A DNA stretch of 64,000 nt from Nicotiana tabacum (taxonomy: Eukaryota > Streptophyta > Magnoliopsida > Solanales > Solanaceae), in the NCBI RefSeq assembly GCF_000715075.1, contig NC_134100.1, positions 29,432,042 to 29,496,041 on the forward strand, written 5' to 3'. Below, piece after piece: positions 3,737-51,282 of the stretch; the stretch's first letter is position 1, and each line of letters starts with the position of its first letter. The notes under the pieces were generated by a model. It worked only from the letters and a program-made list of their open reading frames with translations, did no database searches and was not told the DNA's origin. Made by a program: the position numbers and the translations under genes.

Positions 3737-5185
3737 ATGGAGGCAATGCGTAAGATGAGAAGGGACAGAGCTAGCGGGCCAGACGAAATTCCGGTTGAAC
3801 TGTGGAGGTGTGTGGGTAGAGCAGGCTTGGAATGGCTTACTGCATTGTTTAGTGTTATATTCAAGACTAATAGGATGCCTGAAGAGTGGAGGTGGAGTAC
3901 AATGGTCCCGTTGTATAAGAACAAAGGTGATGTCCAGAGCTGTAACAACTATAGGGGCATCAAATTACTAAGTCATACCATGAAAGTTTGGGAGAGAGTG
4001 GTAGAAATGAGAGTGCGAAGGACGGTGTCTATTTCAGACAACCAGTTCGGGTTCATGCCGGGGCGATCTACCACAGAAGCTATCCACCTTATTAGGAGGA
4101 TGGTGGAACAGTACAGAGATAGGAAGAAGAATCTCCACATGGTGTTTATTGATCTGGAGAAAGCGTACGATAGGGTTCCTAGGGAGGTCTTATGGAGCTG
4201 CTTAGAGGATAAAGGGGTCCCGGTTGACTATATTAGGGTGATTAAAGACATGTATGCTGGAGCTAAGACTCGGGTTAGGACAGTAGGAGGCGACTCTGAA
4301 CACTTTCCAATTATTACGGGGTTGCATCAAGGGTCTGCGCTCAGCCCATTCCTATTTGCCCTGGTGATGGATGCACTGACTCATCATATTCAAGGGGAGG
4401 TGCCATGGTGCATGCTATTTGCTGATGACATTATTTTATTTGACGAAACACGAGGCGGCGTCAACGAGAGGCTAGAGATTTGGAGACATGCTCTTGAGTC
4501 TAAAGGTTTCAAGTTGAGCAGGACGAAGACGGAATACCTAGAGTGCAAATTTGGAGTTGAGCCGACGGAAGCGGGAGTTGAAGTGAGGCTTGACTCTCAA
4601 GTCATTCCCAAGAGGGTTAGTTTCAAGTAACTTGGATCGGTTATCCAGGGGACCGGGGAGATTGACGAGGATGTCACACACCGTATAGGGGTGGGGTGGA
4701 TGAAGTGGAGGTTAGCGTCGGGAGTCTTGTGTGACAAGAAAGTGTCATCGTTACTAAAAGGTAAGTTTTATAGAGCAGTAGTTAGGCCTGCCATGTTATA
4801 TGGAACTGAATGTTGGCCGGTAAAGAACTCACACATCCAGAAGATGAAAGTAGCAGAGATGAGGATGTTGAGGTGGATGTGCGGACATACAAGGATGGAT
4901 AAGATTAGGAATGAAGATATTCGAGAGAAGGTGGGCGTGGCCCCCATGGAGGACAAGATGCGGGAAGTAAGACTCAGATGGTTCGGGCACATTCAGAGGA
5001 GGAGCACTGATGCACCGGTGAGGAGGCGTGAGCGACTGGCTGTGGTGGGCACACGGAGAGGTAGAGGGCGACCTAAGAAGTATTGGGGAGAGGTGATCAG
5101 ACAGGACATGGCGCGACTTAGGATTACTGAGGACATGGCCCTTGACAGAGAATTATGGAGGTCGAGCATTAAGGTTGTAGGTTAG
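3737..5185 (+). pseudogene. RTE LINE reverse transcriptase ORF with one stop
   Basis: The frame runs from the RT fingers ([12 protein letters not shown]) through [17 protein letters not shown] and FGFMPGRST to the palm motif FADD at 4418-4429. All these motifs are intact. At 4628-4630 a TAA replaces the tyrosine codon of the usual KYLGS motif. The same frame then continues without break to 5185 with the C-terminal region ([23 protein letters not shown], [10 protein letters not shown]). One nonsense change in about 1.45 kb suggests a fairly young copy. With no endonuclease domain it cannot mobilise itself. Confidence 0.85.
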
Positions 5186-5535: not shown

Positions 5536-6379
5536 AGACTCTGACTCGAGTAATGGAGTCTAAATCGTGATTCCAAGACCTCAAAATGAAAAACACTTGT
5601 TTTTACCTATCCAACTTCTCAAAATTTGTCATCAGCTAGGAAGAGAAAACAGCCATAACATGAATATTTTTCAACTTTTCTCTGACGTCCAGCAAAATCA
5701 AGCAATATACCACATTTTTTCACTTATCTAGTATCCTTCACTACAAGAGGGGTTGGAATTATCCCTCCAACAACCTCGTAATACCCGCCCTCACTTCCTT
5801 CAACCTCATCAGGCACCGACAATCCGAGGAAATATAGTTATTAGTATAGATTAGATTCTTTTTTTATTTTATTTTGGGAAAACTACACAGTATAGTCGCT
5901 TCCAAAAATAATAGCAGGTAAAATGCATATTTTTTGTATATTAATGTATAATATACATATTTTATACTTATTTTTTTATATATTTGGCTAGCGGATGTAA
6001 TTATTTTTGGCCGACCGGCCAAATGTGTGTGTTCCTCGAAAATATTTTTAGCAACCATACTCATCTTGCGTGTCTTCTTATTAATAGAAGAATTGAGATC
6101 AACATGCACTGTGGACTTCTGCTCCTGTATTCTCCGCGAACTTCGTTAGAAATTATCATTAGTCTCTTTACTACTTCAATCTTTAAATTTTGTCAATTTA
6201 CCAGGTCTAGCAGTTACTATGACAGGAAGAAAAGTTAGGAGCAGCATCGGACAGTGTGAGAATGGGATAACTAACCAGTTCCATTCTATTCTATGTAACC
6301 ACATCGTGCAGTTATAACCACTCAGCAGTTAACTGTGTAGGAGTAATAAGAGCAAAAGTTGGATGGGAGCGGCACATAC
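5536..6379. other. Intergenic, AT-rich
   Basis: No gene. An AT palindrome at 5936-5956 (8-bp stem, 5-nt loop) sits in low-complexity TATA-type sequence. Confidence 0.5.
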
Positions 6380-6478
6380 CCCAGCTCCACAGACAATATT
6401 GTAGAAACCTGTTGATATCTCATTTTGAACAACAATGTCCACTTTTGGTGTAAAGTGTTCTGCTTTTATCTCGGAAAC
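6380..6478 (-). pseudogene. Isolated exon like the cNMP-binding region of a Shaker K+ channel (AKT1-like)
   Basis: On the minus strand a 99-bp, phase-0, stop-free segment is bounded by a good acceptor (ATCTTACAG before 6478) and donor (GTATGTG after 6380). It encodes 33 residues including VSEIKAEHF, PKVDIVVQNE and FYNIVCGAG. This closely follows the stretch at the start of the cyclic-nucleotide-binding domain of plant inward-rectifying K+ channels (pattern VSEMKAEYFPPKxDxxxQNE...DFYxxVxGA). I found no neighbouring exons on either side. It is therefore either a captured or relic exon or the last survivor of a decayed gene. Changes at usually conserved positions (FTPK for FPPK, STGFY for PTDFY) fit loss of constraint. 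Confidence 0.55.
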
Positions 6479-6801
6479 CTGTAAGATCAAAAGCCAAAGG
6501 TCATAGCTTAGTTGTGTGGAGCTGTACAAGTTAAAAATTCCTGCTTTCAGTAAGCAGGTAAGAATACATCACCAGCAGGGCAAATCTCCTATTACTTCCT
6601 CTTGCTGTAGTTCTGCCAAAATATCAACTCACCATAGAAGAAAGGCCCACATACTAATAGCGACAATAAAGCACGTCACATTCATATCCTCTTACGCATA
6701 CTTGTTTTCAAGTACACGATCTCATTTTAGTCTAAGCAACTCAAACTTTGAAAACAACAAAATACACGTACCCAATGAGTCCCAGTCATTCAGCAATGAA
6801 C

Positions 6802-7376: not shown

Positions 7377-7492
7377 TCAAATAACATTCAAGCAAGAAAA
7401 AGGAACAACAACAACAACAACACCATACCCAGTATTATCAAATAACATTCAAGCAAGAAAAAGGAACAACAACAACAACATACCCAGTATTA
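7377..7492 (-). repeat. Duplicated SINE/RTE tail, (CAA)n, reverse orientation
   Basis: Two copies, 7377-7437 (61 bp) and 7438-7492 (55 bp). Each consists of TCAAATAACATTCAAGC plus AAGAAAAAGG, a CAA repeat and CATACCCAGTATTA. Read on the minus strand this is the ATACTGGGTATG-(TTG)n end of an RTE/SINE insertion, tandemly duplicated together with flank. The copies differ only in CAA number and a two-base change next to it. Confidence 0.75.
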
Positions 7493-9705
7493 TCCCAAAG
7501 CAAGATAAATTTGAAACAGCAAAAACAACCGTCTCCTGCTTGCCAAGCCTCTTCTATATATTAGTACAATGTGAAATTCCATTTTCCATTTAGAAAATTA
7601 TTTACTTAAATTAATTTTTAGTTTCTATATGGCCAAGAATTTCTTGTTTAGGATTCTTTCTTCCTATTCTCTCATGAACCTGACTATCAAATCGAAAAAC
7701 AAGGTGGCGTGATGATAGAACTCAACAAGATATCACTTTGCCAATGATTTGACAGATAGTTGATGTTTTGATATTCATATGAAGGAAAAGGTCATCCAGG
7801 AAAGACATTTGCATATTCCCAGAGTTTTAAGTAGCCTGAAGTTTTTCCAAGACTTCAATAATTCCAAGTGAAATTCATGATTGAACCACTAAAAACCTCA
7901 AATTTGACTTGGTTGGACAGCTTCTTGAAGTGTTCTATAAATACCACTATCAAAGTATTTCAGTTTCCAAATACAGCAAACATCTTCCCTTGTCCTTATA
8001 ACAAGGTCCAACAAGGTTTATGTTGCAGCCACAACATTTAGGATTAAGAACAAGCGGGAAAAAAAACAATGAAGAGAAGTGAGAATTTCTTTCGTCATAT
8101 AACAATTTAACATAATGACCAAAGTGTAAATAAAGGGGTAAGCACACGAAAGAAAATTCAAATGTAACAGCATAAACTTCTCCAAAACAATATACAAGCA
8201 GTATGTTTTTCCATGTTTAAATAGGCACCTCATATATTTCACAGTTAGAACTGACAAAGAAAAAGGGGGCAAAACAAAGGCAAATAGATAAGAATTAAAG
8301 CAATATAAACAGGAATTGCTATATTGCTTTCAAGAAAACTCTCATAGAATCGAGAATGAAGTTTCCTCCAGTAAATGCATGATTATAAGTTCATGCCATA
8401 CGGGAATAGGCCGGAATAGTCATATGCAATCTCATTATGAGAAGGGGTCAATCGGTCCTATCTAAACAGATACCATGCTTACATAATGGTTCCTGGATCA
8501 AGTTTGATCTTTATAAGGTCCTGGTCTTTCACTTTGCTTTTCCCTCCCTAACCTCAGTGCCCTCATTCCCCCACTCCCCACCCCTAAAAAAGAAAAGAAA
8601 AAACAAACAACCTAAAGAAAAAAAAATATTACAGAAGGAACAGCAAAATGCATACTCAGATAGTGTAATGAAATGGAATATAACACACAACAGTTCCCCA
8701 CAACCAACACAAGCACACCCTATGACAATGATGCACAAAGTGAAGAGGAGTTGGAAAATTGATACGAAGAATGCTCAGAAAAATCAGTTGATCTATATGT
8801 AAGACATAAGAAAAACCAATTATGGTATACAAGAAACAAGTGAAACAGCTAAGAGGCAATGAAAAAGTCCATCAGAAACGACAATCAGCCAGTTAAATTG
8901 AAAAATTCATCTGCTTTGTGCCATGGTATCAGCAACAAAATTGCAGAGATCTCAAGCTCTGCACTGATCTTAATCTCTGCACCTTCAGCACTGACTATTA
9001 AACTGTGTCGCTTCTGTCCAATCTTTGCACTTCAACCTCTATGTGATAAAGAACGGCACCAGCCTCTCAGCTTTGCCCCTATAATAATATTTGTCTGTCA
9101 AACAATGTCATGACTTCAGAATTTTCCAAAAATTTGTACATTTGATAAAAACATGAACTTATTTTCCGCACACATACTTTAAAAAGAAGCATGTCTAATG
9201 AAGATACATTTGGAATAAGTGCTACTGTATAAGATTAATTATGCAAAAATTTATTAATAATAACCTAAAGTGATATAGTAATAGCTTGATCTACAACCAA
9301 AGAATTCACTATTGACACAACTCTTCTGGATTGAAAATGTGAGTCGCAACTCAAATATATTAAGAAGAGAAATCCCAGCTTAATACAGCACCCTATAGAG
9401 ACCGTGAAGCTGGTTGTTACAGCAACAATTGCAGTAGAGAAAAGAAAAGGAAAGCACTCAGAAAGAACGAATGAAAGCTTAACTTTTTTTGATAAAGAAG
9501 AATGAAAGCTTAACCATTCCAACTTCTAAAACTTTTTAAATTTTAACCCAAAATTAAATGTCACTACATAATTCTGTTATTCTTTTCAGTTCTTTTAACT
9601 TATGCAAGAGATTTCCCACAAGAAAAAATTTATGCAGTAGACATAAGTTTCTTTACCCATACTAAAAGTAACTAGATGGTAGCTTCATTATCATGTTGTG
9701 ATGCA
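7493..9705. other. Intergenic, nothing recognised
   Basis: AT-rich sequence on the 3' side of PUR4. Open frames are short and show no domain. If PUR4 has a 3' UTR intron (see 10328) part of this could be transcribed, but no acceptor can be chosen with confidence. Confidence 0.4.
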
Positions 9706-10322
9706 GACTCGATGAACAGTGCTAGCGGCATACAATCTGTGAGAATGCACAGGAGAAAAATCTATTTATTAACAATGATACAATGAGCCTTATATATAAT
9801 ACACATTCTACTCCTACTACATAAGGGACTAGGACATATTCTACAACTACCTCAGCAAGTATAACTGCAATGAAACACATAAATCGAACAGGCCTTTGAA
9901 AGAATTGATTGAAATACGACAGTGGATAAGTCAAAACATAATGCACTCAAAACCAGTCTTTATGCTACATGTTTCTTCATAGTTCCAACAGGGATAGAAA
10001 CATGGCAAAAGAGTTGATAATGAAGTAAAAGACTCGATGAACAGTGCTAGCGGCATAAAAAGTGTGAGAATGCACGGGAGAAAAATCTATTTATTAACAA
10101 TGATACAATGAGCCCTATATATAATGCACATTCTACAACTACCTCAGCAAGTATAACTGCAATGAAACACATAAATAGAACAGGCCTTTGAAAGAATTGA
10201 TTGAAATACGACAGTGGATAAGTCAAAACATAATGCACACAAACCCAGTCTTTATGCTACATGTTTCTTCATAGTTCCAACAGGGATAGAAACATGACAA
10301 AATAGTTGATAATGAAGTAAAA
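9706..10322. repeat. Tandem duplication next to the PUR4 stop codon
   Basis: Copy one is 9706-10030 (325 bp) and copy two 10031-10322 (292 bp). Both begin GACTCGATGAACAGTGCTAG and end TTGATAATGAAGTAAAA. The second lacks a block of about 33 bp present in the first near 9810-9842, and a few point differences exist. The duplication ends 8 bp from the PUR4 stop codon, so it lies in the gene's 3' UTR or a 3' UTR intron. Confidence 0.95.
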
Positions 10323-10327
10323 GAATT

Positions 10328-10331
10328 ACCT
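10328..10331 (-). promoter_or_regulatory. Possible 5' splice site overlapping the PUR4 stop
   Basis: On the minus strand the stop reads TCATGAGGTAATTC, so TGAG|GTAATT offers a donor immediately after the TGA. It could start a 3' UTR intron. No acceptor was identified, so this is only suggestive. Confidence 0.3.
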
Positions 10332-13300
10332 CATGAGCACCATTCTCTGGCATTTTGGAACATGCGCAACCAGGGACTTGGACCTTTCTTTTCAACATCC
10401 CAATTTTTAGGATACCATGGGAACTGCCACATCAAGAAACAGCGTTCTGGATGAGGCATTATCGCAAGATGTCGCCCATCTGGCGAACAAATTGCCGCCA
10501 CACCCAAGGGAGAACCATTAAGATTGAAAGGATATATATCTGTTGGTCTGCCATCATCATCGCAATATTTCACTGGTGCCAAGTTGGAGCCAACAATATG
10601 ATTGAAAACATTATCATCAGGGAAATAAGCTCTTCCTTCACCATGAGCAGCCCAAACGCCCAGTGTACTACCTTCCATACCTTTGAACATTATGGCCGGT
10701 GATTCTTCTATTGTCACACTCGTGAAGCGGCATTCAAACCTTCCAGACTCATTATGTACAAACCTAGGCTGTGATGGGTCCCCGCCGGCACCGAAAACAC
10801 CTCCCACTTGGGGCCCCGGAACCCAACCCAACAGAGCCATAAGTTGGCACCCGTTGCAAACTCCGAGGCTGAAAGTGTCTGGACGGTTATAAAATGCCTG
10901 AAATTGGTTTAAAAGAGGTTGATTAAAGCGAATGGACGCTGCCCAGCCTTTTGCAGAATCAAGCACGTCAGCATAACTAAAACCTCCAACAAACACAATT
11001 CCTCTAAATTCATCAAGCGTGATGACTCCATTGAGAAGGTCTGACATTGCAACATCCCATGGCTCAAATCCAGCAGCATAAAAAGCTGCAGCCATTTCTC
11101 TATCACCATTGCTGCCTTCCTCGCGAATAATTGCGACCTTTGGCTTGGAAACGACAGTCATATATTTATCATCAGTAAATGTTGGTGTGAAGGATAGTTT
11201 CCAGGATGGTTCATGCCGATTCTTCAATCCTTCTTTTTCTAATTCTACACACGAAGCCAGTCTTTGGAGCTTTTCCAATTGAAAGCTGGTTTCTTCCCAC
11301 ATATCCCTCAGCACAGAAGTTTTCTCATTCAAATGAGTAACCCCGTCAACTGTCAACTCAACTATTGGAGATGAAGTAACTTGAGCAATAATATTAGCTG
11401 AAACAGCACCACTGCGGAGCTTTTCCAGAACTAAGTCCAAGTTCTTCCTGCTAACTTCAATGAGAAGGCCAAGCTCCTCTGCAAAAAGTGTTTGGGGTAC
11501 ACTACTCCCTAAAGAAGTTAAATCCAAGCGAATGCCACAGTTCCCTGCGAATGCCATTTCCAGGGCATTCACTAAAAGTCCCCCATCACTGATATCATGA
11601 CCAGCAGATATCAGCTCATCAGAGATTAGATTCTGAACCTCATTAAAAACAGTCTTAAGATAAGATGTGTCATCCAGATCAGGACTTTCATCCCCAATTT
11701 GATCAAAAACCTGTGCAAGAGCAGATCCACCAAGTCGTCGTTTTCCTTTAGCCAAGTCAATATGAAGCAGTACACCATCATCTCCAAGCTTCAAGTCTGG
11801 AGTAACTGTCTTGGTTATATCAGGACACGTCACATAGGTACTGATGACTAGATTCCCTGGGGCTTTAACAAGTTCCCCAGACGAGTGGGCTGCCATGGAA
11901 AGGCTGTCTTTCCCCCCGTCAATTGCAATTCCAAGTTCAATCATAGCTTCAGAAAGAGCAACAGCAGCGTCATACATTGCAGCTCCTTCACCATCTAGCT
12001 TTGCAGCATACATCCAATTCCCACTTGCTTTAACATCAGAAAGAGATGTAACTTTCGCCCAAACAAGATTTGTGAGTGCTTCTCCGACAGCCAGCCGTGC
12101 CATTGCTTTTGGATCCAAAAGACCTTTTATTGGCTGCTCCCCAATTGAGCATGCACCTCCAGTTAAGTCTGTATAAGTTTGAGCTATAACAGCAACATCA
12201 GCAAGAGGAATCTGCAGGGGACCCACAGTTTGTTGCTGTGCCACAAGGCCTGTGACACACCTGTCAACTTTAGTGGTCAAGAACCTTTTCGAACAAACAG
12301 AAGGGAGCCTCAGGACCCTCTTCAATGAATCTAAAACTGTTGTTGCAGGAGCAATATCAAGTGGTTCACGCAGATTGTTCATGCGACGGAATTCAAATGT
12401 CTTTTTAGGCATATCGCCAAGCACCTTCTCAAGCTCAAGATCCACTGCAGGTGGAGGAGGAGGCAATCCACTAGACCTGCATTTTTCAATTGCTTTTTAG
12501 CATAAAAGATGGAGCTAGAATCGCTTACACACAAGTTTTGCATGCTAAAAATCAAAGCCTGAAATGAAATTTAATCTTTATCCTCAAATTTTCAGCATAA
12601 GAAAAAAGATTAAATTCTGGTTCTTTCTCGATAAACAAACAGCCAGATGCTTTTTAGCACAAAAATTGGACCAAGAATGCCATACGCACCAGCATTGCAC
12701 AGCAAAAATCAACGCTCAGAAATAAACATTAATCTTTCTCCAAAATTTTCAGCATACAAAAAAAAACAATTTTGACAACCAGAAAATAGCTTTGAGTTAT
12801 TGCTTTAGCAAAATCAACAAATATCATTGCCAAAAATCAAAATTTGAAATAAATACTTAATTGTTCTTCCACGAATTTTCAGCATCCATAAAAAGATTCA
12901 GTTTTGAGCAAGGCCAGTGAGTGTGTTGGAACTTTTGGACAAAAGCTCAGCAGTGAGACATTCCTTTTTTTAAAAACTTAAATTACTCTTCTAAGAACAA
13001 ATGCCTGATTAAAAATTTAATATAATTTATTATCATTAGTTTTAGGGCGGAATTGCCCTACCTGTTGGGAAATATACTGGGTATGTTGTTGTTGTTGTTT
13101 TAGGGCGGAACTGACAGAGGTTTGTAATTGAGTGATGGATATCTAGTCAACTTAGGTAATAAAATTCATGATTGTTAATCTTTCAGACATTAATTTTAAT
13201 TTTACTTTAAGGATGAGGGCAGTTCACCAGACCTGGATTTTTCAATTGCCACGCTATCCTCCAGGACAATACGCCCTTCACCATTAATTGTTCCAATAAC

Positions 13301-15392
13301 AGCCATGGAAACTCTTTCCCTCGCACATATTGCTTGCAAAAGATCACGACTTTCAGGCTTCACTAGTATAGCATCTTGCTCCTGATATTCTGCACCCCAA
13401 ATTTCCAGAACAGACATCGTGTGATCGCCAACTACAATTGCCCTTATATCAATTTTGGCGCCCTGTGGATGTATTATTTCCTTCACAACATTACAGTTTC
13501 CACCAGCACCCTGATCATGAATACTTATGATCGGGTTGTTGTCCCCTATCTCAATGCAAGCACGAACAACCCGATACAACTTCTGTGCCATCTCAGCATC
13601 TCCACGCTGCACGGCGTTGAAGTCAAGCTCAGCATCATTCTGTCCACTGACCATGCTGGATGCAGCGCCACCTCCCATTCCAATACGATATGCTGGTCCT
13701 CCAATCTTAACTACCAACATACCAATCTCGGGTTCTCCCTTTGATAAGTGAAGGTGATCTATTTGCCCAATGCCAGCACTAAACATGATCGGCTTCAACC
13801 ATTCCCTCCTCTCACCACTTGGCAGTCTCATTCCAAACGTTCGACAATAACCCTGAATCAAAGGCTCCCCGAATTTGTTCCCATAGTCCGATGCTCCATT
13901 ACTAGCATCAATAAGGATCTGCAGCGGTGAAGCCAAATTTGCTGGGTATGTGAAAGAAGGATCTTCCCAAGGAGCATATGAACCTTCAATATGAAGATTT
14001 CCAACACAATATCCAGCTGTAGATGCAACAACAAAAGAACCCCTTCCCGTAGCATGGGTATCCCGGATACGGCCGCCTGCACCTGTCTCAGCACCAGGAT
14101 AAGGTGCCACAGCACAAGGGAAATTGTGGGTTTCTGCAGTAAACAAGATAGCTAGGTCACTGGTAATCATGACCAAGAAGCATGCCGAACCAGGCTTGAT
14201 AGGTCGCAATTGCTTCACTCGGAACCCCTTGATAGCGCTGGAATTATCTTTGAAACCAATAACCGAATTGTTTGGATTTGCAAGCAAAGTGCTCTTGACG
14301 ATCTGCATAAGAGTCTTATCCACAGGTTGACCATCTATAACAAGTTTCCCTGTAAAGAACCAGTGCCTACTATGTTCGCTATTAGATTGAGCAATATCAA
14401 ATAATTCCACATTCGTTGGGTTTCGCTTCATGTCATCCCTGAAAAGTTTGATGTAGTACTGTAAGTCTTGCTCATCAAAAGCCAACCCCATTTTCTCATT
14501 AATTTCCTCCAATGCCTTTCGACCCCTTTCTATGACGGGTATATATCGAACCTCCTCTGGAACTATGCTTGTCTTGAAAGAAGTAAGCTTCTCAACATAA
14601 ACACACTCAGTCATCCGATCATGAACCATAGAAGCAAACTCATTAATTTGACTATCCAGAAGTGACCCGTCAACATATAATAAATACCTCCTAGAACGCT
14701 CCATTCTATTTATCTCTGTTAATCCGCATGCTTGGCAAATGGACACTGCATTAGCGGACCACGCCGTAGTGAAAGATAACCGTGGACCAACTTCAATGAT
14801 ATATGCATCTGGAATTTTCCTCTTCTCCTCATCGAGGAAACTCTCGCTTCCCAAGTTCTCAGGTTCATAAGTTTCTCCTAAAACCCATTTAAGCACAAAA
14901 AGTTTCTCACTTGAAATATCTGAATTGAGCCCGATATTGAAACACTGTTCTGTTTTCAAGCCAATTATCTGATTAGAGACCTTTGTTTGAACCAACTTGA
15001 GAAGCTCAGCAGTGGCACTGTCCTGTAGAAACGGAACACGATATAAATGCATCACCTTCTCAGCAACCTGAACATCTTCATCAACGACGCTCTTGATATC
15101 CCTCGAGACCACAGCTCTAATCTTCGCCGGAATATGAGACCTTAAACTCAAATTCTTATGTGAATACTTAAGAGGGCTTTGTCTTGGAAGTGTACCCCAA
15201 AGCAAACGATTCGTCTGCTTACTGGAATGTCGGGGTAATGCTAGCTTTTGTCTATCAAAACCCTGCAATTAAATAAGTACCAGAGTTAAAACAATTTCCT
15301 CAACATCATTATACAGAACATATTAAAAGAAACAGTAATAATCATACCTGTAAGAATTCTGTTGCAGTGATGTCCCAAGCAGATGTTGCCAT
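10331..15392 (-). CDS. PUR4: Phosphoribosylformylglycinamidine synthase, plastid-targeted
   Basis: FGAM synthase catalyses step 4 of de novo purine synthesis: FGAR + ATP + glutamine to FGAM, in plastids of plants. Exons read 15392-15348 (15 codons, MATSAWD...), 15262-13233 and 12476-10331, with splice phases 0 and 2, giving 1406 residues, the usual plant length. An N-terminal region rich in basic and hydroxylated residues looks like a transit peptide. Then come the N-terminal/linker region with AQSNSEHSRHWF, two AIRS-like halves (GAETGAGGRIRDTHATGRG, KIGGPAYRIGMGGG in exon 2; AIDGGKDSLSM in exon 3), and a class I glutamine amidotransferase domain. The amidotransferase has its Cys in GVCNGCQLM and His/Glu in HPERC. 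No internal stop or frameshift was seen. I chose the ATG at 15392 because it joins in phase to exon 2 through canonical GT/AG sites; the open frame reaching 15268 starts only with TTG inside the intron. Confidence 0.95.
12462..12493. repeat. Direct repeat at PUR4 intron 3' end (right copy)
   Basis: 32 bp, 28 identical to 13218-13249. It spans the acceptor, includes the first exon-3 codons, and contains AGGT on the coding strand. Confidence 0.9.
12492..12905 (-). repeat. About 155-bp tandem units inside the PUR4 intron
   Basis: Units start at 12492, 12649 and 12802 (partial), each opening on the plus strand with GCTTT(TT)AGCA and containing an ATTTTCAGCAT block. The 5' flank of the gene has one full unit (from 15667) plus a partial one (from about 15803). 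The copy inside the intron has therefore gained a unit. Confidence 0.75.
13039..13110 (+). mobile_element. Micro-insertion of a SINE/RTE tail with 14-bp target duplication
   Basis: A 44-bp insert (13053-13096), containing GGGAAATATACTGGGTATG and TTG repeats, is flanked by perfect 14-bp direct repeats GTTTTAGGGCGGAA at 13039-13052 and 13097-13110. This is a severely 5'-truncated non-LTR or SINE insertion within the PUR4 intron. Confidence 0.85.
13218..13249. repeat. Direct repeat at PUR4 intron 5' end (left copy)
   Basis: It spans the exon-2 donor. Mismatches with the right copy are at repeat positions 5, 7, 11 and 19. Homology stops sharply at GC on the exon-2 side, marking one breakpoint. 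Confidence 0.9.
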
Positions 15393-15407
15393 TGCAAAAG
15401 TCTGCTG

Positions 15408-15630
15408 CTGCAATAAATAAGAATGAAACAAATTATCGTTGAACCAAAAAAAAACATAGACAAGAAACAAGTCAGCACGATAAATTTATGGGATAAGAAA
15501 AACCTTAACTTCTAGAAAACTAACAGAATATACGCTAGCTAAAGAAAACTCAAAATCAAATAACCCCAGGAAAAAATCAATTAAATACCCCACTCAAGAA
15601 CAATATTTGTTACAAAGGAGTAGCCTTTAC
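15408..15630 (-). other. Probable PUR4 5' UTR intron
   Basis: A strong acceptor, TTTATTGCAG|CAGCAG, lies 15 bp before the start codon. A candidate donor TTGG|GTAAAG at 15630 follows the leader ending AACGCCAAAATTGG. Introns in the leader are common in plant housekeeping genes. The acceptor is convincing, the donor less so. Confidence 0.55.
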
Positions 15631-15981
15631 CCAATTTTGGCGTTTCCTTCACCACGCGCGCAAAAAGCTTTTTAGCATAAAAACTGAGCTAGAATACAAA
15701 TTTGTGTGTGATAACAATCAAAACTTGAAATAAAAATATAATCTTTCTCCACACATTTTCAGCATAGGAGAAAACAAGAATCAATGTACCTTTAAGTTGT
15801 GGTTTTAGCAAAATCAGCTAAAATTATGGCCAACGTGAGTGGGGAAAAGCCAGCGTGAGAGAGTGTTGGCTGAGGCTTTTGGACAAAAACCCTAGTACTC
15901 AGATATTCCTTTTTCTTTTTTCATTCTACTTTATTCGAAATTAAAGATTGATATAGAGTCAACTTAAAATTTGATTATTCG
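15631..15981 (-). promoter_or_regulatory. PUR4 promoter and leader region
   Basis: This segment lies between the inferred leader donor and the copia insertion. It is the source-like counterpart of the intron body at 12492-13175. No clear TATA box was identified. The copia element begins at 15987, so only about 350 bp of original sequence remain upstream of the leader. Confidence 0.5.
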
Positions 15982-15986
15982 AAAAT

Positions 15987-16520
15987 TGTTATAAATATAT
16001 TATATTATGAATGTTCATTTAGTACTCCGTTGTAAATAATCTTCATCCATATGAGATTCCACCGTAAATTTGTTTATCCATTTAGTACTCTATTGGAAAT
16101 AAGCTTCCTGAAGAAGCTTATCACTTCGGTACCCGGTTATGGATAAACATTACCCTAGGTAGAAGATTATCCATACCGGGTATAATAAGCTTATCCATTC
16201 AGTACTCCGTTATGGATAAACATTGCTCTCAGTAGAAGATTATCCATATCTAGTATAGTAGCAGCTTACACAGCAGCTTGCAGTAGCAGCTTACACAGCA
16301 GCTTGCTGTAGCAGCTTACACAGCAGAGCTTGCGTAGCAGCTTACACAACAGCTTGTAGTAGCAGCTTACATAGCAGCTTGCGTAGCAGCTTACACAACA
16401 GCTTCCTTTCTTTTATAAATAGAAGAGATTTCAGTTCATTATGTACATCAGTTTGAATTCGAATAATATATCAGTTTCTCTCTATACTTGTCTTTACTTT
16501 ATAGTCTTTATTTTATAACA
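15987..16520 (+). repeat. Copia 5' LTR (534 bp)
   Basis: TGTTATAA...TATAACA. TATAAATA at 16414-16421. Upstream of the TATA box, 16257-16404 is a tandem array of roughly 24-bp units built from GTAGCAGCTTACACAGCAGC. Confidence 0.95.
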
Positions 16521-16540
16521 CGTTATCAGCACGAGACTCT
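16521..16540 (+). other. Primer-binding-like site of copia element
   Basis: CGTTATCAGCACGAGA directly follows the LTR and resembles a variant of the methionyl-tRNA site TGGTATCAGAGC. Nearly the same sequence follows the LTR-like repeats at 28771 and 31973. Confidence 0.5.
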
Positions 16541-16598
16541 GCCATCTCGAGCAAATATTTTGAAAGTATCTGAGGTAAGAACTTTCTTTTCCTAAATA

Positions 16599-17609
16599 AT
16601 GTCAAATCTTTCTAAACTTGAATTTGTAGCCCTGGATATATCAGGCAAAAGCTACATGTCTTGGGTGTTTGATACTGAAATTTATCTTAATGCGATGGGT
16701 CTGGCAGACACCATCAAAGACAAAAATCAAGCATCAAACCAAGACCGTGCCAAAGCAATGATATTCCTACGCCATCACCTTGATGAGGGCCTAAAAATGA
16801 AATATCTTACTGTTAAAGATCCAGTCATACAGTGGAATAATTTGAAAGATAGATATGACCACCTGAAGATGGTTGTTTTTCCACAGACACGAAATGATTG
16901 GACTCATCTAAGGCTACAAGATTTTAAATCTATCAGTGAGTATAATTCTGCTATGATTAGAATTATTTCCCAATTGAAGTTATGTGGTGATAATATTACT
17001 AATCATGATATGTTGGAGAAAACTTTCACCACTTTTCATGCCTCGAATATGCTCCTGCAGCAGCAATATCGAGAGATGGGATTTAAAAAGTATTCTGAAC
17101 TTATCTCACATCTTCTTATAGCCGAGCAATATAATGGGCTATTAATGAAAAATCATGAAAGCCGACATGCTGGTTCTTGTCCATTCCCTGAAGTGAATGA
17201 GACGAATTTCCACCAGGCTAAACGTGGAAAAGGTCGTGGCCCCGGTCGTGGTCATGGTCGTGGTCGGGAAAGAAACTCTAATCATGGTAATAATAATGCA
17301 CCAAAGAACACTCCTCAACACCAGCAGTGGAAAAGGAAGGAACAAAAGCATGAAGCGGTGCAAGCACCAAATGCAGAAAATGCATGCTATAAATGTGGAG
17401 AAAAAGGGCACTGGTCACGTACCTGTCGTACGCCAAAGCACCTGGTTGAGCTTTATCAAGTCTCCCTAAAGAAGGCAGAGAAAAATGCTGAAGCAAATTT
17501 TATTTCTGAAGATAATTTAGACTTCATGCATTTGGATGTAACTGATTACCTTGCACTCCCAGAAGGAGAAACAAGTCATGTAATCGGTGGTAAATCTATA
17601 GAAATGTAA
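16599..17609 (+). CDS. Copia gag protein
   Basis: A 336-residue intact ORF begins 78 bp after the 5' LTR. The N-terminal two thirds read as a copia-type gag (SGKSYMSWVFDTEIYL, LRHHLDEGLKMKY, WNNLKDRYDH, RLQDFKSISEYNSAM). An RG-rich basic stretch follows (GRGPGRGHGRGRERN, about residues 210-226). Then comes a CCHC zinc knuckle CYKCGEKGHWSRTC (residues 263-276), which binds genomic RNA during particle assembly. The stop at 17607-17609 separates it from pol, which is ruined. An intact gag beside a dead pol may mean pol was lost first or that gag has simply escaped mutation by chance. Confidence 0.9.
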   Translation: MSNLSKLEFVALDISGKSYMSWVFDTEIYLNAMGLADTIKDKNQASNQDRAKAMIFLRHHLDEGLKMKYLTVKDPVIQWNNLKDRYDHLKMVVFPQTRNDWTHLRLQDFKSISEYNSAMIRIISQLKLCGDNITNHDMLEKTFTTFHASNMLLQQQYREMGFKKYSELISHLLIAEQYNGLLMKNHESRHAGSCPFPEVNETNFHQAKRGKGRGPGRGHGRGRERNSNHGNNNAPKNTPQHQQWKRKEQKHEAVQAPNAENACYKCGEKGHWSRTCRTPKHLVELYQVSLKKAEKNAEANFISEDNLDFMHLDVTDYLALPEGETSHVIGGKSIEM

Positions 17610-17619
17610 ATATTTTAAT

Positions 17620-19520
17620 TTTTGTTGTTTGTAATAGATAGTATGGTTATCTAATTGTTGTACATAAAGAATAAATTATGATTTGATAATGATGTTTACT
17701 ATAATATATCTTATTTATGTCATTTTGAAGAATATGGATAATATTATTAGATCAACTTAAACTCTAGCAGAGTTTGCAAGAAATATACAACCACCAGAAG
17801 TAGTTATATTTCATATATCTCATTGTAATTAACCACCAGAAGTGGTATATGTCTATGATCACCAGAAGTGATAATTTAGGCTTTCTATGGTTACAATTGA
17901 AGATAAGCTACATAAATATTCTCTATATTAAATGCACGCCTCGATTTGCTCCTGAAATAGTAAATATTTTAAAAGAGATTGAGGCATCACAATTTGATGA
18001 TTAATGCGCATTCAGATAATTATGTTCGATTTCCTGAAGGATGAGAACTTTGGATAATATTAATCCATTCCCTGAAGTGAATGTGACAATATTAATAAAT
18101 CGGGTAAATATGAACGCACTCTTGATGTGAATATATCACAGTTCACCTTAAGAAGAGGTAATATAATTGAGAGAATATATACTCAATATTTCGTATTTTA
18201 AATTTGCTCCTGAATAAGTAACACAATTGAAATTGCCTCCTAAAGTAGGAAAATATTATGAAGAAGAGTTTTCTTGTGCTTAAATAATTGTTTTACATTA
18301 TTTATTTGATTGTGATTTTCTCTCATGATACCAGAAGTGTATGAGAAATATTTGATAGTACAAAATGTATCAACAACTCCTGAAGAGCTAAATATTTGCC
18401 TAAAGAATACATGACACCAGTAGTGCCAGATAAATATTAGATTGTGGATAATAAATGAAGGCTCTCAAAGAGCTTATATACAAATATGTCATTCATATTA
18501 TATGATTATGGTCAAAACATATGTTGTAGTAAACCTGAAGTTTACTAATACAAATGGCTATCATATTGAGACTACAAATGATTGGAAGATTGATAATCTT
18601 CATGTTTTCACAATCATAGGGGGTAAAATAATATGTATGTGAGAAGTTACCTGTCTTATTCTTTAATTTGTACTATATCATGTATCACAGTAAACCAGAA
18701 GTTTACTAAAACAAAAGTTTATGCCATAGTAAACCAGAAGTTTACTAAGAGATAGCACATGACATGATAAACTTGAAGTTTTCATTTGCCATTTTTAAAT
18801 GAGCTATTTGAGAATTCAGATAAGCATATACTAAAGAACTAGAAGATTCTTCAGGAATTCTCATGGGTTACTTGCTCTCATAATGAATTGATTATACCAG
18901 CTAAAGTTGGGACTAAGACCCCTGATTCTGAAATATATAAAAGGTGAATATGAGCTCGTTCACCTATCATGTGAACCACTTATAGGTGCATATATGAGAT
19001 GGTTACATGTGTAATTATTGTCAACCTGCAGTTTGGCATTTGGAATTGCTTTTCTCGATTAAGAGCATAATTTTCAGATTATGAAATCAAGACAGTTCAT
19101 CTTGATAATGCTGGTTTATATCCAAGCTGGTTTAGCATTGAATACCTCCTATTAATGGCTAAACCATTGCTTATGAGAACAAAGTTTCATGTATTGGTCT
19201 AAGATTTTCTAAATTGCATATAGCAGCACTTGTATGCATCAAATCAATAATATATGATAAGTCCTCCCTTCACAATTGGTTTAGGATCGGAAACCAAATA
19301 TTTTTACTATCTTTTGTTGTGTGATATATGATTAATTTCTCTACCATAATACACAAAGGTATGTTTCCCAAAGATGATTGGGGATATATGTTAGTTTTTC
19401 TAACATTTGGGGGATGGAATAAACAGTTGAAAAATATGCTATATGAATCGAATTATCATTAATATGATCCTCACTTAGAAGATAATTCAAGTCAAATGCC
19501 AGAAGCATTTGCTGATCCAA
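17620..19520 (+). repeat. AT-rich copia interior with a series of short hairpins
   Basis: Where protease and most of integrase should be, the sequence is mostly non-coding. It carries repeated inverted repeats with a 5-nt loop C[A/T]GAA but different stems. Examples are loops at 17837-17841 (stem ACCAC), 17863-17867 (ATCAC), 18332-18336 (10 bp with one bulge), 18535-18539 (TAGTAAAC, 8 bp), 18696-18700 (7 bp), 18735-18739 (8 bp) and 19500-19504 (CAAATGC, 7 bp). The last lies in recognisable pol codons. Confidence 0.7.
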
Positions 19521-21072
19521 AATTAAATATCATATTTCAGCTACAAATGCTCCTATTAAAATTAAAGTCCCTGAAGGATAGAGTTTACTGTACGCATGAA
19601 GCGTGGTAGACCAATCGGTTCCAACGGTAACAATTCTTGTAAAATAGTAGGAGCTAATGATCAAAATGATCATAATGAGGAGGAAATAAGCTCTAGAAGA
19701 GCCCACGACATAACATTTCATGAAACTCCCGAAAAAGTTCAGGTACCCGAAAATAAAGAAAGTGATAAGATCTCCACAAGTTATGTCGCTTCGGAACTGA
19801 CACAAAATGATCGTCGACGATATATTTGATACAATATAGTGCACAATATTATAAAAGATTGTGAGGATCGGACTAGCAGTCCAGACACTTGAAGATGTCA
19901 TACCATTTAGAGACAAGTCTTAACCTATATGACTTATTTGGCTAAATCTATAGGAAGATCGTTGAAGGATTGAAAATGCTCGAAGCATATAATTCAAAGT
20001 CTTGAGAAATGTACTCGATCAAATTATAAAGATCTTTGTACGGTTTAAAGCATTCTGTGCGCGTGTGGTATAATCGCCTCAGTAAATATTTGTTGAAAGA
20101 AAGTTACATAAATTATGTTATTTGTCCATGTATTTTTATAAAGAAAATGTCATCAAAATTTATTACACTTGTTGTTTATGTTGGTGACATAAATCTTATT
20201 GGAACTCCGGAAGAGCTCCAAGAGGGTCTTAAAAATACTTTTACATGTACAAAGTGTACCCATTAAGTACACCAATGAATATTCAGTCACTTGAAGTGAA
20301 TAAGGATCCGTTCCAACCTCTAGAAGAGGACGAGGAACTCCTTGGTCCCGAAGTACCCTATCTCAGTGCAATTGGTGCACTAATGTATCTTGCTAATGCT
20401 ATAAGGTCTGACATAGCATTTTCTGTTAATTTACTAGCAAGATATAGTTCTTCTCCTACACGGAGACATTGGAACGTGATTAAGCATATATTGCGATATT
20501 TAAAGGGAACTCTTGATATGAGTTTGTTTTATGCTAACAAAGATAGTGCAGACCTTGTTGGTTATGCAGATGCAGGTTATTTATCTAATCCCCATAAAGC
20601 TCGATCTCAAACCGGCTACGTATTTACATATGGAGGTACTATCATATCATGGCGCTCCACAAAGCCATCTATTGTTGCTACTTCTTCAAATCACGCTGAG
20701 ATAATAGCTATTCACGAAGCAAGTAGGAAATGCGTATGGTTGAGATCAATAATTCATTTTATTTGAGAAAAATGTGGTTTGGAATGTGAGAAAAGAACCA
20801 CAATTTTATACGAAGACAATGTTGCATGCATAGCCCAATTGAAGGGAGGATTTATAAAAGGAGATAGAACGAAGCACATTTCACCAAAATTATTCTACAC
20901 ACACGATCTTCAGAAAAGTGGTGACATTGATGTGCAACAAATCCGTTCAAGTGATAATCCAGCAGATTTATTCACTAAATCTTTGCCAACTTCAACTTTT
21001 GAGAAGATGGTATACAAGATTGGAATGCGGAGACTCAAATATTTGAAACAAGGTTTTCATCAGGGGGAGTAA
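19085..21072 (+). pseudogene. Decayed copia pol (integrase tail, RT, RNase H)
   Basis: Fragments in order are: an integrase-like HLDNAG stretch near 19100; the linker KRGRPIGSNG (19596 on); a reverse transcriptase fragment from 20036 (MYGLKHSVRVWYNRL); the RT end and RNase H (20245-20766, 20779-21072) with LYEDNVACIAQLKGG and DLFTKSLPTSTFEKM. The RT active site reads YVGD at 20177-20188 instead of YVDD. Stops and frameshifts separate the pieces, and most of the RT palm/fingers and all of the protease are missing. Confidence 0.85.
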
Positions 21073-21272
21073 AATACGCGATGCACTCTTTTTCCCTTAC
21101 TAAGGTTTTTTCCCATGGGGTTTTCCTTATAAGATTTTTAATAAGGCACCTAGCAATGCGTATTACTAAATATGTGTACTCTTTTTCCTTCACTAGGATT
21201 TTTTTCCACGTGATTTTTCCTAGTAAGGTTTTAATGAGACACATTATCTTTTAATGAACATCCAAGGGGGAG

Positions 21273-21831
21273 TGTTATAAATATATTATATTATGGATGT
21301 TCATTTAGTACTTCGTTGTAAATAATCTTCCTGAAGAAGCTTATCCATATGAGACTCCACCGTAAATATGTTTATCCATTTAGTACTCTATTGGAAATAA
21401 GCTTCCTGAAGAAGCTTATCACTTCGGTACCCGGTTATGGATAAATATTACCCTAGGTAGAAGATTATCCATACCGGGTATAATAAGCTTATCCATTCAG
21501 TACTCCGTTATGGATAAACATTGCTCTCAGTAGAAGATTATCCATATCTAGTATAGTAGCAGCTTACACAGCAGCTTGCAGTAGCAGCTTACACAACAAC
21601 TTGCAGTAGCAGCTTACACAGCAGAGCTTGCGTAGCAGCTTACAGAGCAGCTTGTAATAACAGCTTGTAGTAGCAGCTTACATAGCAGTTTGCGTAGCAG
21701 CTTACACAACAGCTTCCTTTCTTCTATAAATAGAAGAGATTTCAGTTCATTATGTACATCAGTTTGAATTCGAATAATATATCAGTTTCTCTCTATACTT
21801 GTCTTTACTTTATAGTCTTTATTTTATAACA
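21273..21831 (+). repeat. Copia 3' LTR (559 bp)
   Basis: Preceded by CCAAGGGGGAG. TATAAATA at 21725-21732. The AGCAGCTTACA array (about 21555-21715) differs in unit number and content from the 5' LTR, accounting for the 25-bp length difference. Confidence 0.95.
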
Positions 21832-49674: not shown

Positions 49675-51282
49675 ATGTCTAACTCTCAATCTGTTCATTT
49701 GAACGTTGATGCTAAGTCTAGCCACCATGGCGAGAACAACAATGTGGTGCCCAGCAACGGGGTGCCTCATGTTGACCCCAACGGAGTTCCAGTCGCGGAC
49801 CCGATCGATGCTAACTCACATGTGGTTATCGATGCAAACTTGTCTACGACCCCAAAAACAACATTCACGGGGGAGCCCCATTGATAGACCGGAGTACACA
49901 CGAAGGCGAAGGTGATGAGATCAATTTGCGGGTGATCTTCAAAATTTTATAGGCTCAACAGGCAGTGATAGCTCAGTTGAAGAACTAATGCCACGCCCCC
50001 AGCATAATTGAGCCCGAACCATATCGAAAAAATACCCGCAGAAACTAACCGGACATGGAAAGGCCGGGTGAAGTTGAACCTGGAACCAACCCCGAGATAA
50101 TAAAGATGCTTGAGAAACTGATAAAGCAGGTGGAATCAGGAGAAAACAAAATCGAAGTCAACGACAAAAAGGTGGAGACCTATAACTCTAGGGTTGATCA
50201 AATCCCAGGAGCGGCCCCGATATTTAAAGGCCTGGATTCCAAGAAAATTGTTCAAAAACCTTTCCCTCCGAGCGCATCTCATACCCGAAATTCCAAAGTA
50301 CAATGGGATGACATATCCGAATAAGCATGTGACTTCCAACACATGTGCCATCAAGGGAAATAACTTAGAGGACGACGAAATTGAGTCGGTTCTACTGAAA
50401 AAGTTCAGAGAAACCTTGTCTAAAGGAGCAATGATATAGTATCACAACCTACCCCCTAATTCCATTGATTCGTTTACTATGCTTGCGGATGCCTTCGTAA
50501 AAGCTCATGCCGGAGCCATCAAGGTCGAGACTAGAAAATCAAACCTTTTCAAAGTGAAACAAAGGGATAACAAAATGCTCAGGAAATTCGTGTCGAGGTT
50601 TCAGATGGAACGAATGGACCTACCCCCGGTTGCGGACGATTGGGCGTTTCAGGCTTTCACTCAACAGTTCAACCCCCAAAGCTCCTTGTCTTTGCAGCAG
50701 CTGAAATAGAATTTGATAGAGTGCCTGGCGATAACATGGGCTGACGTCCATAACAGGTTCCAATCGAAAATTAGATTCGAGGACAATCAACTTGGGGACC
50801 TCTCGGGGTCCATATATCAGATCAGAACTAATTACAGGTCTAAAAGAGTCGTCGATCATAAACCAAGACTAAGTAGAGATTGGTGTCAACCGTCTAGCAG
50901 GGATCGAAGTGGCAGCAAATCCGGACGTAACCCTGTGAGGAATGAAAAAATAAGCGATCGAGGTCATAATAGCCTGGGACTCATGGGCAAAAATGGTTTC
51001 GACAGGCCACTCGGGGCCAGGGAGGCACCGAGGTTATCGGAATACAACTTCACTGTCGATGCTACCAGCATCATATCTTCCATCGAACACATTAAAGATA
51101 CCAAGTGGCCTCGGCCATTACAGTCTGATCCTGCCCAAAGAGACCTCAATCTGATGTGCAAGTATCATGGAACTCATGGCTATAAGACCGAAGACTGCCG
51201 ACAACTAAAAGAAGAAGTATCCCGATTATTCAATAGCGGACACCTCCGGGAATTTCTAACTGATCTAGCCAAAACTAAATAG
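49675..51282 (+). pseudogene. Gypsy gag with frameshifts
   Basis: The ATG at 49675 is the likely gag start, 113 bp after the LTR. Successive frames carry the gag N-terminus (49675-49884), a stretch with EPGTNPEIIKMLEKLIKQVE (50055 on), the capsid (50479-50709: MLADAFVKAHAGAIKVE, KMLRKFVSRFQMERMDLP) and a C-terminal part (50713-51282) with CKYHGTHGYKTEDC (51157-51198), the histidine-rich knuckle of Tat gag proteins. At least three frame changes and several stops are present. Confidence 0.8.

Follow-up and report, generated by a model that had tools for sequence, protein, structure and literature searches.

A coding-region intron of tobacco PUR4 that very probably derives from the gene's own promoter and leader

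The phosphoribosylformylglycinamidine synthase gene (PUR4, FGAM synthase) of Nicotiana tabacum lies at 15392-10331 on the minus strand of the window, the whole stretch of 64,000 nucleotides that we analyzed, and its coding region is interrupted by an intron bounded by a short exon duplication. This raises the question of where the intron came from, and whether it was gained by insertion of the gene's own 5′ flank, as an initial annotation had proposed. The gene model is composed of the following parts.

15348..15392, minus strand: PUR4 exon 1, with the ATG at 15392
15263..15347, minus strand: PUR4 intron 1, 85 bp; rosid frames begin within the equivalent intron
13233..15262, minus strand: PUR4 exon 2
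12477..13232, minus strand: intron 2, the putatively gained intron, 756 bp; junction after base 2 of codon 692
10331..12476, minus strand: PUR4 exon 3, including the stop codon at 10331

Splicing at AG|GT gives a predicted product of 1406 residues, the length claimed previously for the restored junction, and the unspliced frame runs into a stop after residue 701, about nine codons inside intron 2. GT-AG ends and a restored frame are present in the gene models of both homeologs. The consensus for a splice donor is CAGGTAAGT; the donor of intron 2 matches it at 6 of 9 positions and is the best GT in the scanned stretches. Intron 2 is 68–70% A+T, as compared with 55–56% for the exons. A Solanum cluster matches the window's PUR4 at 96% over residues 450-950, and dN/dS between the homeologs (0.088 for the N-terminal half and 0.206 for the C-terminal half) shows purifying selection on both halves. 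Because of this conservation, we infer that intron 2 would be spliced out of the PUR4 RNA. A scan of 9500-16600 for RNA families at gathering thresholds gave no matches. The 3′ flank of the gene contains a tandem duplication of about 0.3 kb at 9705-10324 (copies at 10324-10030 and 10032-9705), and this stretch is single in the homeolog. Farther away, the frames at 3737-5185 and 50713-51282 resemble, by eye, a LINE-type reverse transcriptase and a retroelement gag-like protein.

The ends of the intron carry two copies of a 32-bp exon segment.

13218..13249, minus strand: donor-side copy D, which holds AG|GT
12462..12493, minus strand: acceptor-side copy D′, which reads AIEKCRSSGLP

Copy D (13249-13218) is GCAATTGAAAAATCCAG|GTCTGGTGAACTGCC and copy D′ (12493-12462) is GCAATTGAAAAATGCAG|GTCTAGTGGATTGCC; they are identical at 28 of 32 positions, and the corresponding pair in the homeolog also differs at 4/32. 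The direct repeat with AGGT at the splice points is thus as initially described, and the outer ends of its two copies coincide with the proposed bounds of the feature, 12462..13249. Both homeologs carry such a repeat, a short piece of exon sequence at either end of the intron, as expected from repair of a staggered break. Since AIEKCRSSGLP agrees with the residues of Capsicum P0003 and P0121, D′ probably keeps the ancestral exon, with D changed on either side of the splice point. At the junction, tomato P0128 has RSGELPPPPP, resembling the window's copy D. We discarded old intron loss as an explanation of this likeness; since the homeolog reads RSGGLP, the window's E arose once the two homeologs had separated, and the resemblance to tomato is probably independent. 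In P0073 (Solanum commersonii), 11 residues are missing precisely at the junction, in a model with other oddities. P0128 and P0073 are models from one Solanum PUR4 lineage, and both are odd at this place.

We then compared the body of the intron with the 5′ flank of the same gene.

15667..15986, minus strand: the source, PUR4 promoter and leader up to an AAAAAGC point in the probable 5′UTR intron; it continues past the copia element
13134..13154, minus strand: insert block similar to flank 15946-15966 (86% over 21 bp; not significant alone, supported by the homeolog)
12932..12969, minus strand: insert block similar to flank 15876-15914 (82%)
12832..12885, minus strand: leader unit A, similar to 15713-15765 (81%)
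12649..12833, minus strand: leader unit B with the upstream part of the unit; 12704-12833 is similar to 15713-15833 (72%)
12492..12607, minus strand: leader unit C, similar to 15667-15774 (77%, E 3e-17); it ends at AAAAAGC, like the source
13039..13110, minus strand: SINE tail (13096-13053) flanked by 14-bp duplications, TTCCGCCCTAAAAC; a dispersed sequence of the genome that the homeolog also has
15987..21831, no strand assigned: copia-type LTR element in the source flank, with an ATTTT duplication and an LTR K of 0.019 (10 differences in 534)

The blocks are collinear with the flank and in the same orientation, at 72–86% identity, as an alignment of the two was expected to reveal. The local score of the whole insert against its own flank was 97 in the window and 103 in the homeolog, where the shuffle maxima were 39 and 42; the 5′ part alone scored 43 in the window (maximum 31) and 51 in the homeolog (maximum 36). 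The 5′ part of the homeolog's insert also matched a truncated copy of the PUR4 5′ end, copy U (see below), with a score of 55 (maximum 38). None of 500 dinucleotide shuffles reached the real score in any of the five tests. Real sequence served as a further control: 320 scores on other pieces of the window reached at best 33, a value obtained against the homeolog's insert, and 20 upstream pieces of the homeolog gave its 5′ part at best 27. An initial local alignment with cheap gaps was dropped as too permissive; its score of 931.5 was still above the maxima of 836 for 300 shuffles and 769 for 346 real pieces. The body of intron 2 very probably derives from the gene's own 5′ flank. The proposal of a diverged, same-orientation copy of the promoter and leader is upheld as to the origin, with the refinement that the body is more than one simple copy: the leader unit occurs about three times within the intron, which also holds a SINE tail. 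The copia element now splits the source flank in the window.

The homeologous PUR4 gene (H) at C14:89058000-89075000 carries the same intron, of 749 bp, and its flank lacks the copia element and is unsplit. The following segments of the H intron are collinear with the H flank.

H10310-10378, similar to 7470-7532: begins 16 bp past D
10529-10578, similar to 7573-7626
10619-10669, similar to 7728-7777
10668-10855, similar to 7658-7833
10891-11013, similar to 7707-7833: reaches D′ with 2 bp shared

Was the intron gained by tobacco or lost elsewhere? We inspected the junction in relatives in partly overlapping sets of 23, 29 and 8, drawn from 239–267 that were fetched; most of the fetched relatives are gene models or possible transcripts and are uninformative on introns. 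In seven (P0024, P0046, P0065, P0069, P0124, P0126 and P0243, on contigs of 2.6 to 51 kb), the frame is unbroken across the intron-2 site. These frames are best read as genomic because residues that precede the intron-1 acceptor replace exon 1, and single cases among them could be intron-retaining transcripts. Their nearest relatives among 37 named proteins are from Castanea, Fagus, Fagus, Ziziphus, Castanea, Vigna and Manihot, respectively, all of which we take to be rosids. The intron is thus absent at the same place in these outgroups, where a same-site intron in distant plants, with no similarity to the 5′ flank, had been named as evidence against the proposal. Since the seven rosid frames are uninterrupted and both homeologs have the intron, it would have arisen within the ancestry of tobacco, prior to the divergence of the subgenomes; the comparison supports gain rather than loss elsewhere. 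Exchange between the subgenomes could also have placed it in both homeologs. We also considered a chimera of paralogues, using 62 residues that separate the Solanum PUR4 lineages A (P0002) and B (P0003, P0121, P0128 and P0073), and rejected it. On either side of the junction, A-like sites are mixed with B-like ones, and no breakpoint is seen there: the window's N half has 12 A, 11 B and 4 neither, with sites starting only at residue 211, and the C half, which leans to B, has 10 A, 23 B and 2 neither.

Other fragments of PUR4 are found in the assembly. Copy U (L012:5053-6115, on C14 about 2 kb upstream of H) is a truncated tandem copy of the PUR4 5′ end. It contains flank, leader, exon 1 (with an in-frame TGA) and intron 1, and ends with 18 nt of exon 2, which are joined to a repeat of sequence lying farther upstream. 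The duplication is marked by a second repeat (L012:3435-3869 and 6112-6591). No counterpart of copy U was found in the window, or elsewhere by the leader search. When columns in which two of the three sequences agree were summed over two blocks, copy U and the main leader agreed against the intron in 28, the intron and the main leader against copy U in 19, and the intron and copy U against the main leader in 9; copy U and the intron do share a few indels. Copy U appears by these counts to be younger than intron 2. We rejected it as a direct intermediate or source of the intron: the repeated unit is absent from it, and of the three sequences the intron has diverged furthest. A further fragment (L014:5609-5982, at C24:6.506 Mb), located on another chromosome, consists of a leader piece, part of intron 1 and the start of exon 2; it is 85–90% identical and has two TAG stops in the matched frame.

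The divergence of the pieces gives a relative chronology. Between the homeologs, K is 0.05 in the intron and 0.08 in the flank, and dS is 0.04–0.06. An intron unit and the flank differ by K 0.25–0.52 in the multiple alignment, and the best pairwise match of unit and flank, with 17 mismatches in about 107 aligned bases, gives K of about 0.18. The copying would accordingly be about 2 to 10 times older than the homeolog divergence, depending on the pair and the alignment. Averaged over 12 pairs each, K is 0.32 among the intron units and 0.36 between units and flank; because the two are so close, the leader array would be at least roughly as old as the insertion. The copia element is judged from its LTR divergence to be younger than the copying.

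It had also been suggested that the insert might act as an internal promoter for the C-terminal half. The motif TAGGGTTT, presumably telo-box-like, and the leader splice donor AAAGGTA are present in both flanks and in neither intron; both introns read AAAGCT at the place of the donor. As both introns have lost the motif and the leader donor, this idea is weakened. Copy U has kept TAGGGTTT and has CCAGGTA at the donor place.

How did the flank sequence enter the exon? We favor one-step templated repair with the gene's own 5′ flank, to which we assign a probability of about 0.55. A break would have occurred in the PUR4 coding exon in the ancestor of both tobacco subgenomes, and the gene's own 5′ flank, about 2.4–2.8 kb upstream, would have served as the repair template. 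Synthesis would have left the exon at ..GATTGCC, which shares GCC with the flank GCCC, copied about 360–430 bp of promoter, leader and the start of the probable 5′UTR intron, and re-copied part of the leader about two more times. It would then have re-entered the exon by way of the GC in AAAAAGC, 32 bp upstream of the exit, and this re-entry point would account for the duplication of the 32-bp segment with AGGT. The left copy would supply GT and the right copy AG, so that the A+T-rich insert could become an intron and leave the protein unchanged. Read by eye, the right joint runs from AAAAAGC to GCAATTG with GC shared, and the left joint, from exon GCC to flank GCCC, has no sharp edge, since exon GCCTCCTCC resembles flank GCCCATCATC. 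We infer the switch points, and that the event was single. The flank is an identifiable source for the copied insert, as expected of staggered-break repair, and the K values of 0.32 and 0.36 are those expected if the array arose with the insertion, which supports the one-step repair. More tentatively, we read the whole as one template-switching event that copied the gene's own promoter, leader and 5′UTR-intron start into a coding exon; about three A+T-rich leader-intron units may have made the insert spliceable at once, and later loss of the promoter motif and the leader donor would have completed the change from promoter to intron.

Of the two routes that were initially proposed, the other also fits the marks, although we favor templated repair. 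A tandem duplication of flank, leader and N-terminal half, in which the downstream copy stays a complete gene, could have been followed by a deletion inside the resulting long intron that removed the rest of the second leader and the N-terminal half. Such an origin is possible, if doubtful: it predicts the same anatomy, its intermediate is fully functional, and copy U is a local precedent for 5′ tandem duplication at the homeolog. However, two events are needed, with the deletion ending 17 bp before the acceptor; BLAST of the intron gave no other trace of a second N-terminal half, and copy U is not the intermediate, for the reasons given above. One templated repair with two switches accounts for all marks at once. 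Counting against the one-step repair, the triplicated unit could already have been in the flank beforehand, and the two-step route leaves identical marks.

The remaining explanations are far less probable. That leader and intron are both copies of a dispersed repeat or transposon might be suggested by the SINE tail and the repeated units, but is very improbable in view of the genome search (3,996,098,646 bases, 4.0 Gb, in 700 contigs), which skips very common words and scores the best candidates only, so that remote copies may be missed. For intron 2, 40 of 49 candidates were scored; 36 of the 40 matched the SINE tail alone (query 578-629), and the other 4 were the two PUR4 introns and the two leaders. 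All 10 scored matches of the leader lay in one of the two PUR4 genes or their introns, in copy U or in the C24 fragment. The SINE tail is thus the only dispersed part of intron 2 among the scored matches, which, that tail aside, contain no transposon- or introner-like element present at many places. With the leader limited to PUR4-derived places, the homeolog alike and seven rosid frames uninterrupted, the proposed gain from the gene's own 5′ flank stands. Similarity alone has no direction, and the leader might instead have been replaced by a copy of an old intron. This is equally improbable: the exon duplication flanks the intron, which marks the intron as the recipient; in copy U and the C24 fragment, too, the leader stands upstream of exon 1 or of other sequence from the gene's 5′ end; and the rosid frames examined lack the intron. 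Scarcely more credible is that the halves are never spliced together, belonging to a broken gene or to two transcripts from two promoters. The early end of the unspliced frame and the donor's imperfect match would fit, but each half has an open, conserved frame in the two homeologs, GT and AG are kept, a search of the assembly with exon 2 gave only two PUR4 genes and the C24 fragment with stops, and both introns have lost the promoter motif and the leader donor.

Templated insertions at plant breaks copy nearby sequence, with short microhomologies at the joints. The PUR4 intron resembles them in its copied nearby sequence and the short shared bases at its joints; unlike these experimental repair scars, it became a conserved intron. 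It also resembles the neointrons of Daphnia pulex, judging from excerpts of PMC4202315 and PMC3443670, in the direct repeat at its ends, as from a staggered break, the internal repeats and the A+T-rich insert. In the same excerpts (PMC4202315), repeats lie inside the new intron in 55 of 90 neointrons, and the mean insert is 78 bp; by contrast, the PUR4 insert is about ten times longer, its repeat is 32 bp, and its source is the same gene's promoter and leader. In vertebrate ATP2A1, as excerpted from PMC4974935, a duplicated AGGT exon segment likewise gives GT and AG with the protein unchanged. The PUR4 intron differs in that its body is distant 5′ flank and not duplicated exon segment, unless a deletion followed; the sequence that separates flank from exon segment is absent from intron 2 and may have been present before a deletion. 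The excerpted report also describes a potato RdRp intron gained by tandem duplication spanning the gene's first intron-exon boundary (PMC4974935). There, too, part of an existing intron of a nightshade gene supplies the body of a new intron, whereas the body of the PUR4 intron traces to promoter and leader sequence lying over 2 kb from it.

Introns gained through duplication of AGGT are known; what is unusual here is the identified source, the gene's own promoter and leader. We found no intron derived from its own gene's promoter in the excerpted intron-gain literature (PMC3443670, PMC4202315, PMC4974935 and PMC3296678), although such a case could still be in print. According to the excerpts of PMC4974935, only a small number of gained introns have a known source sequence. 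At PUR4, the source, the recipient, the duplicated target, the homeolog and a local 5′ tandem duplication are all visible together. The locus offers a test of whether leader-intron sequence, once copied, makes a new intron splice efficiently, and its steps could be dated by comparisons within Nicotiana and among other nightshades.
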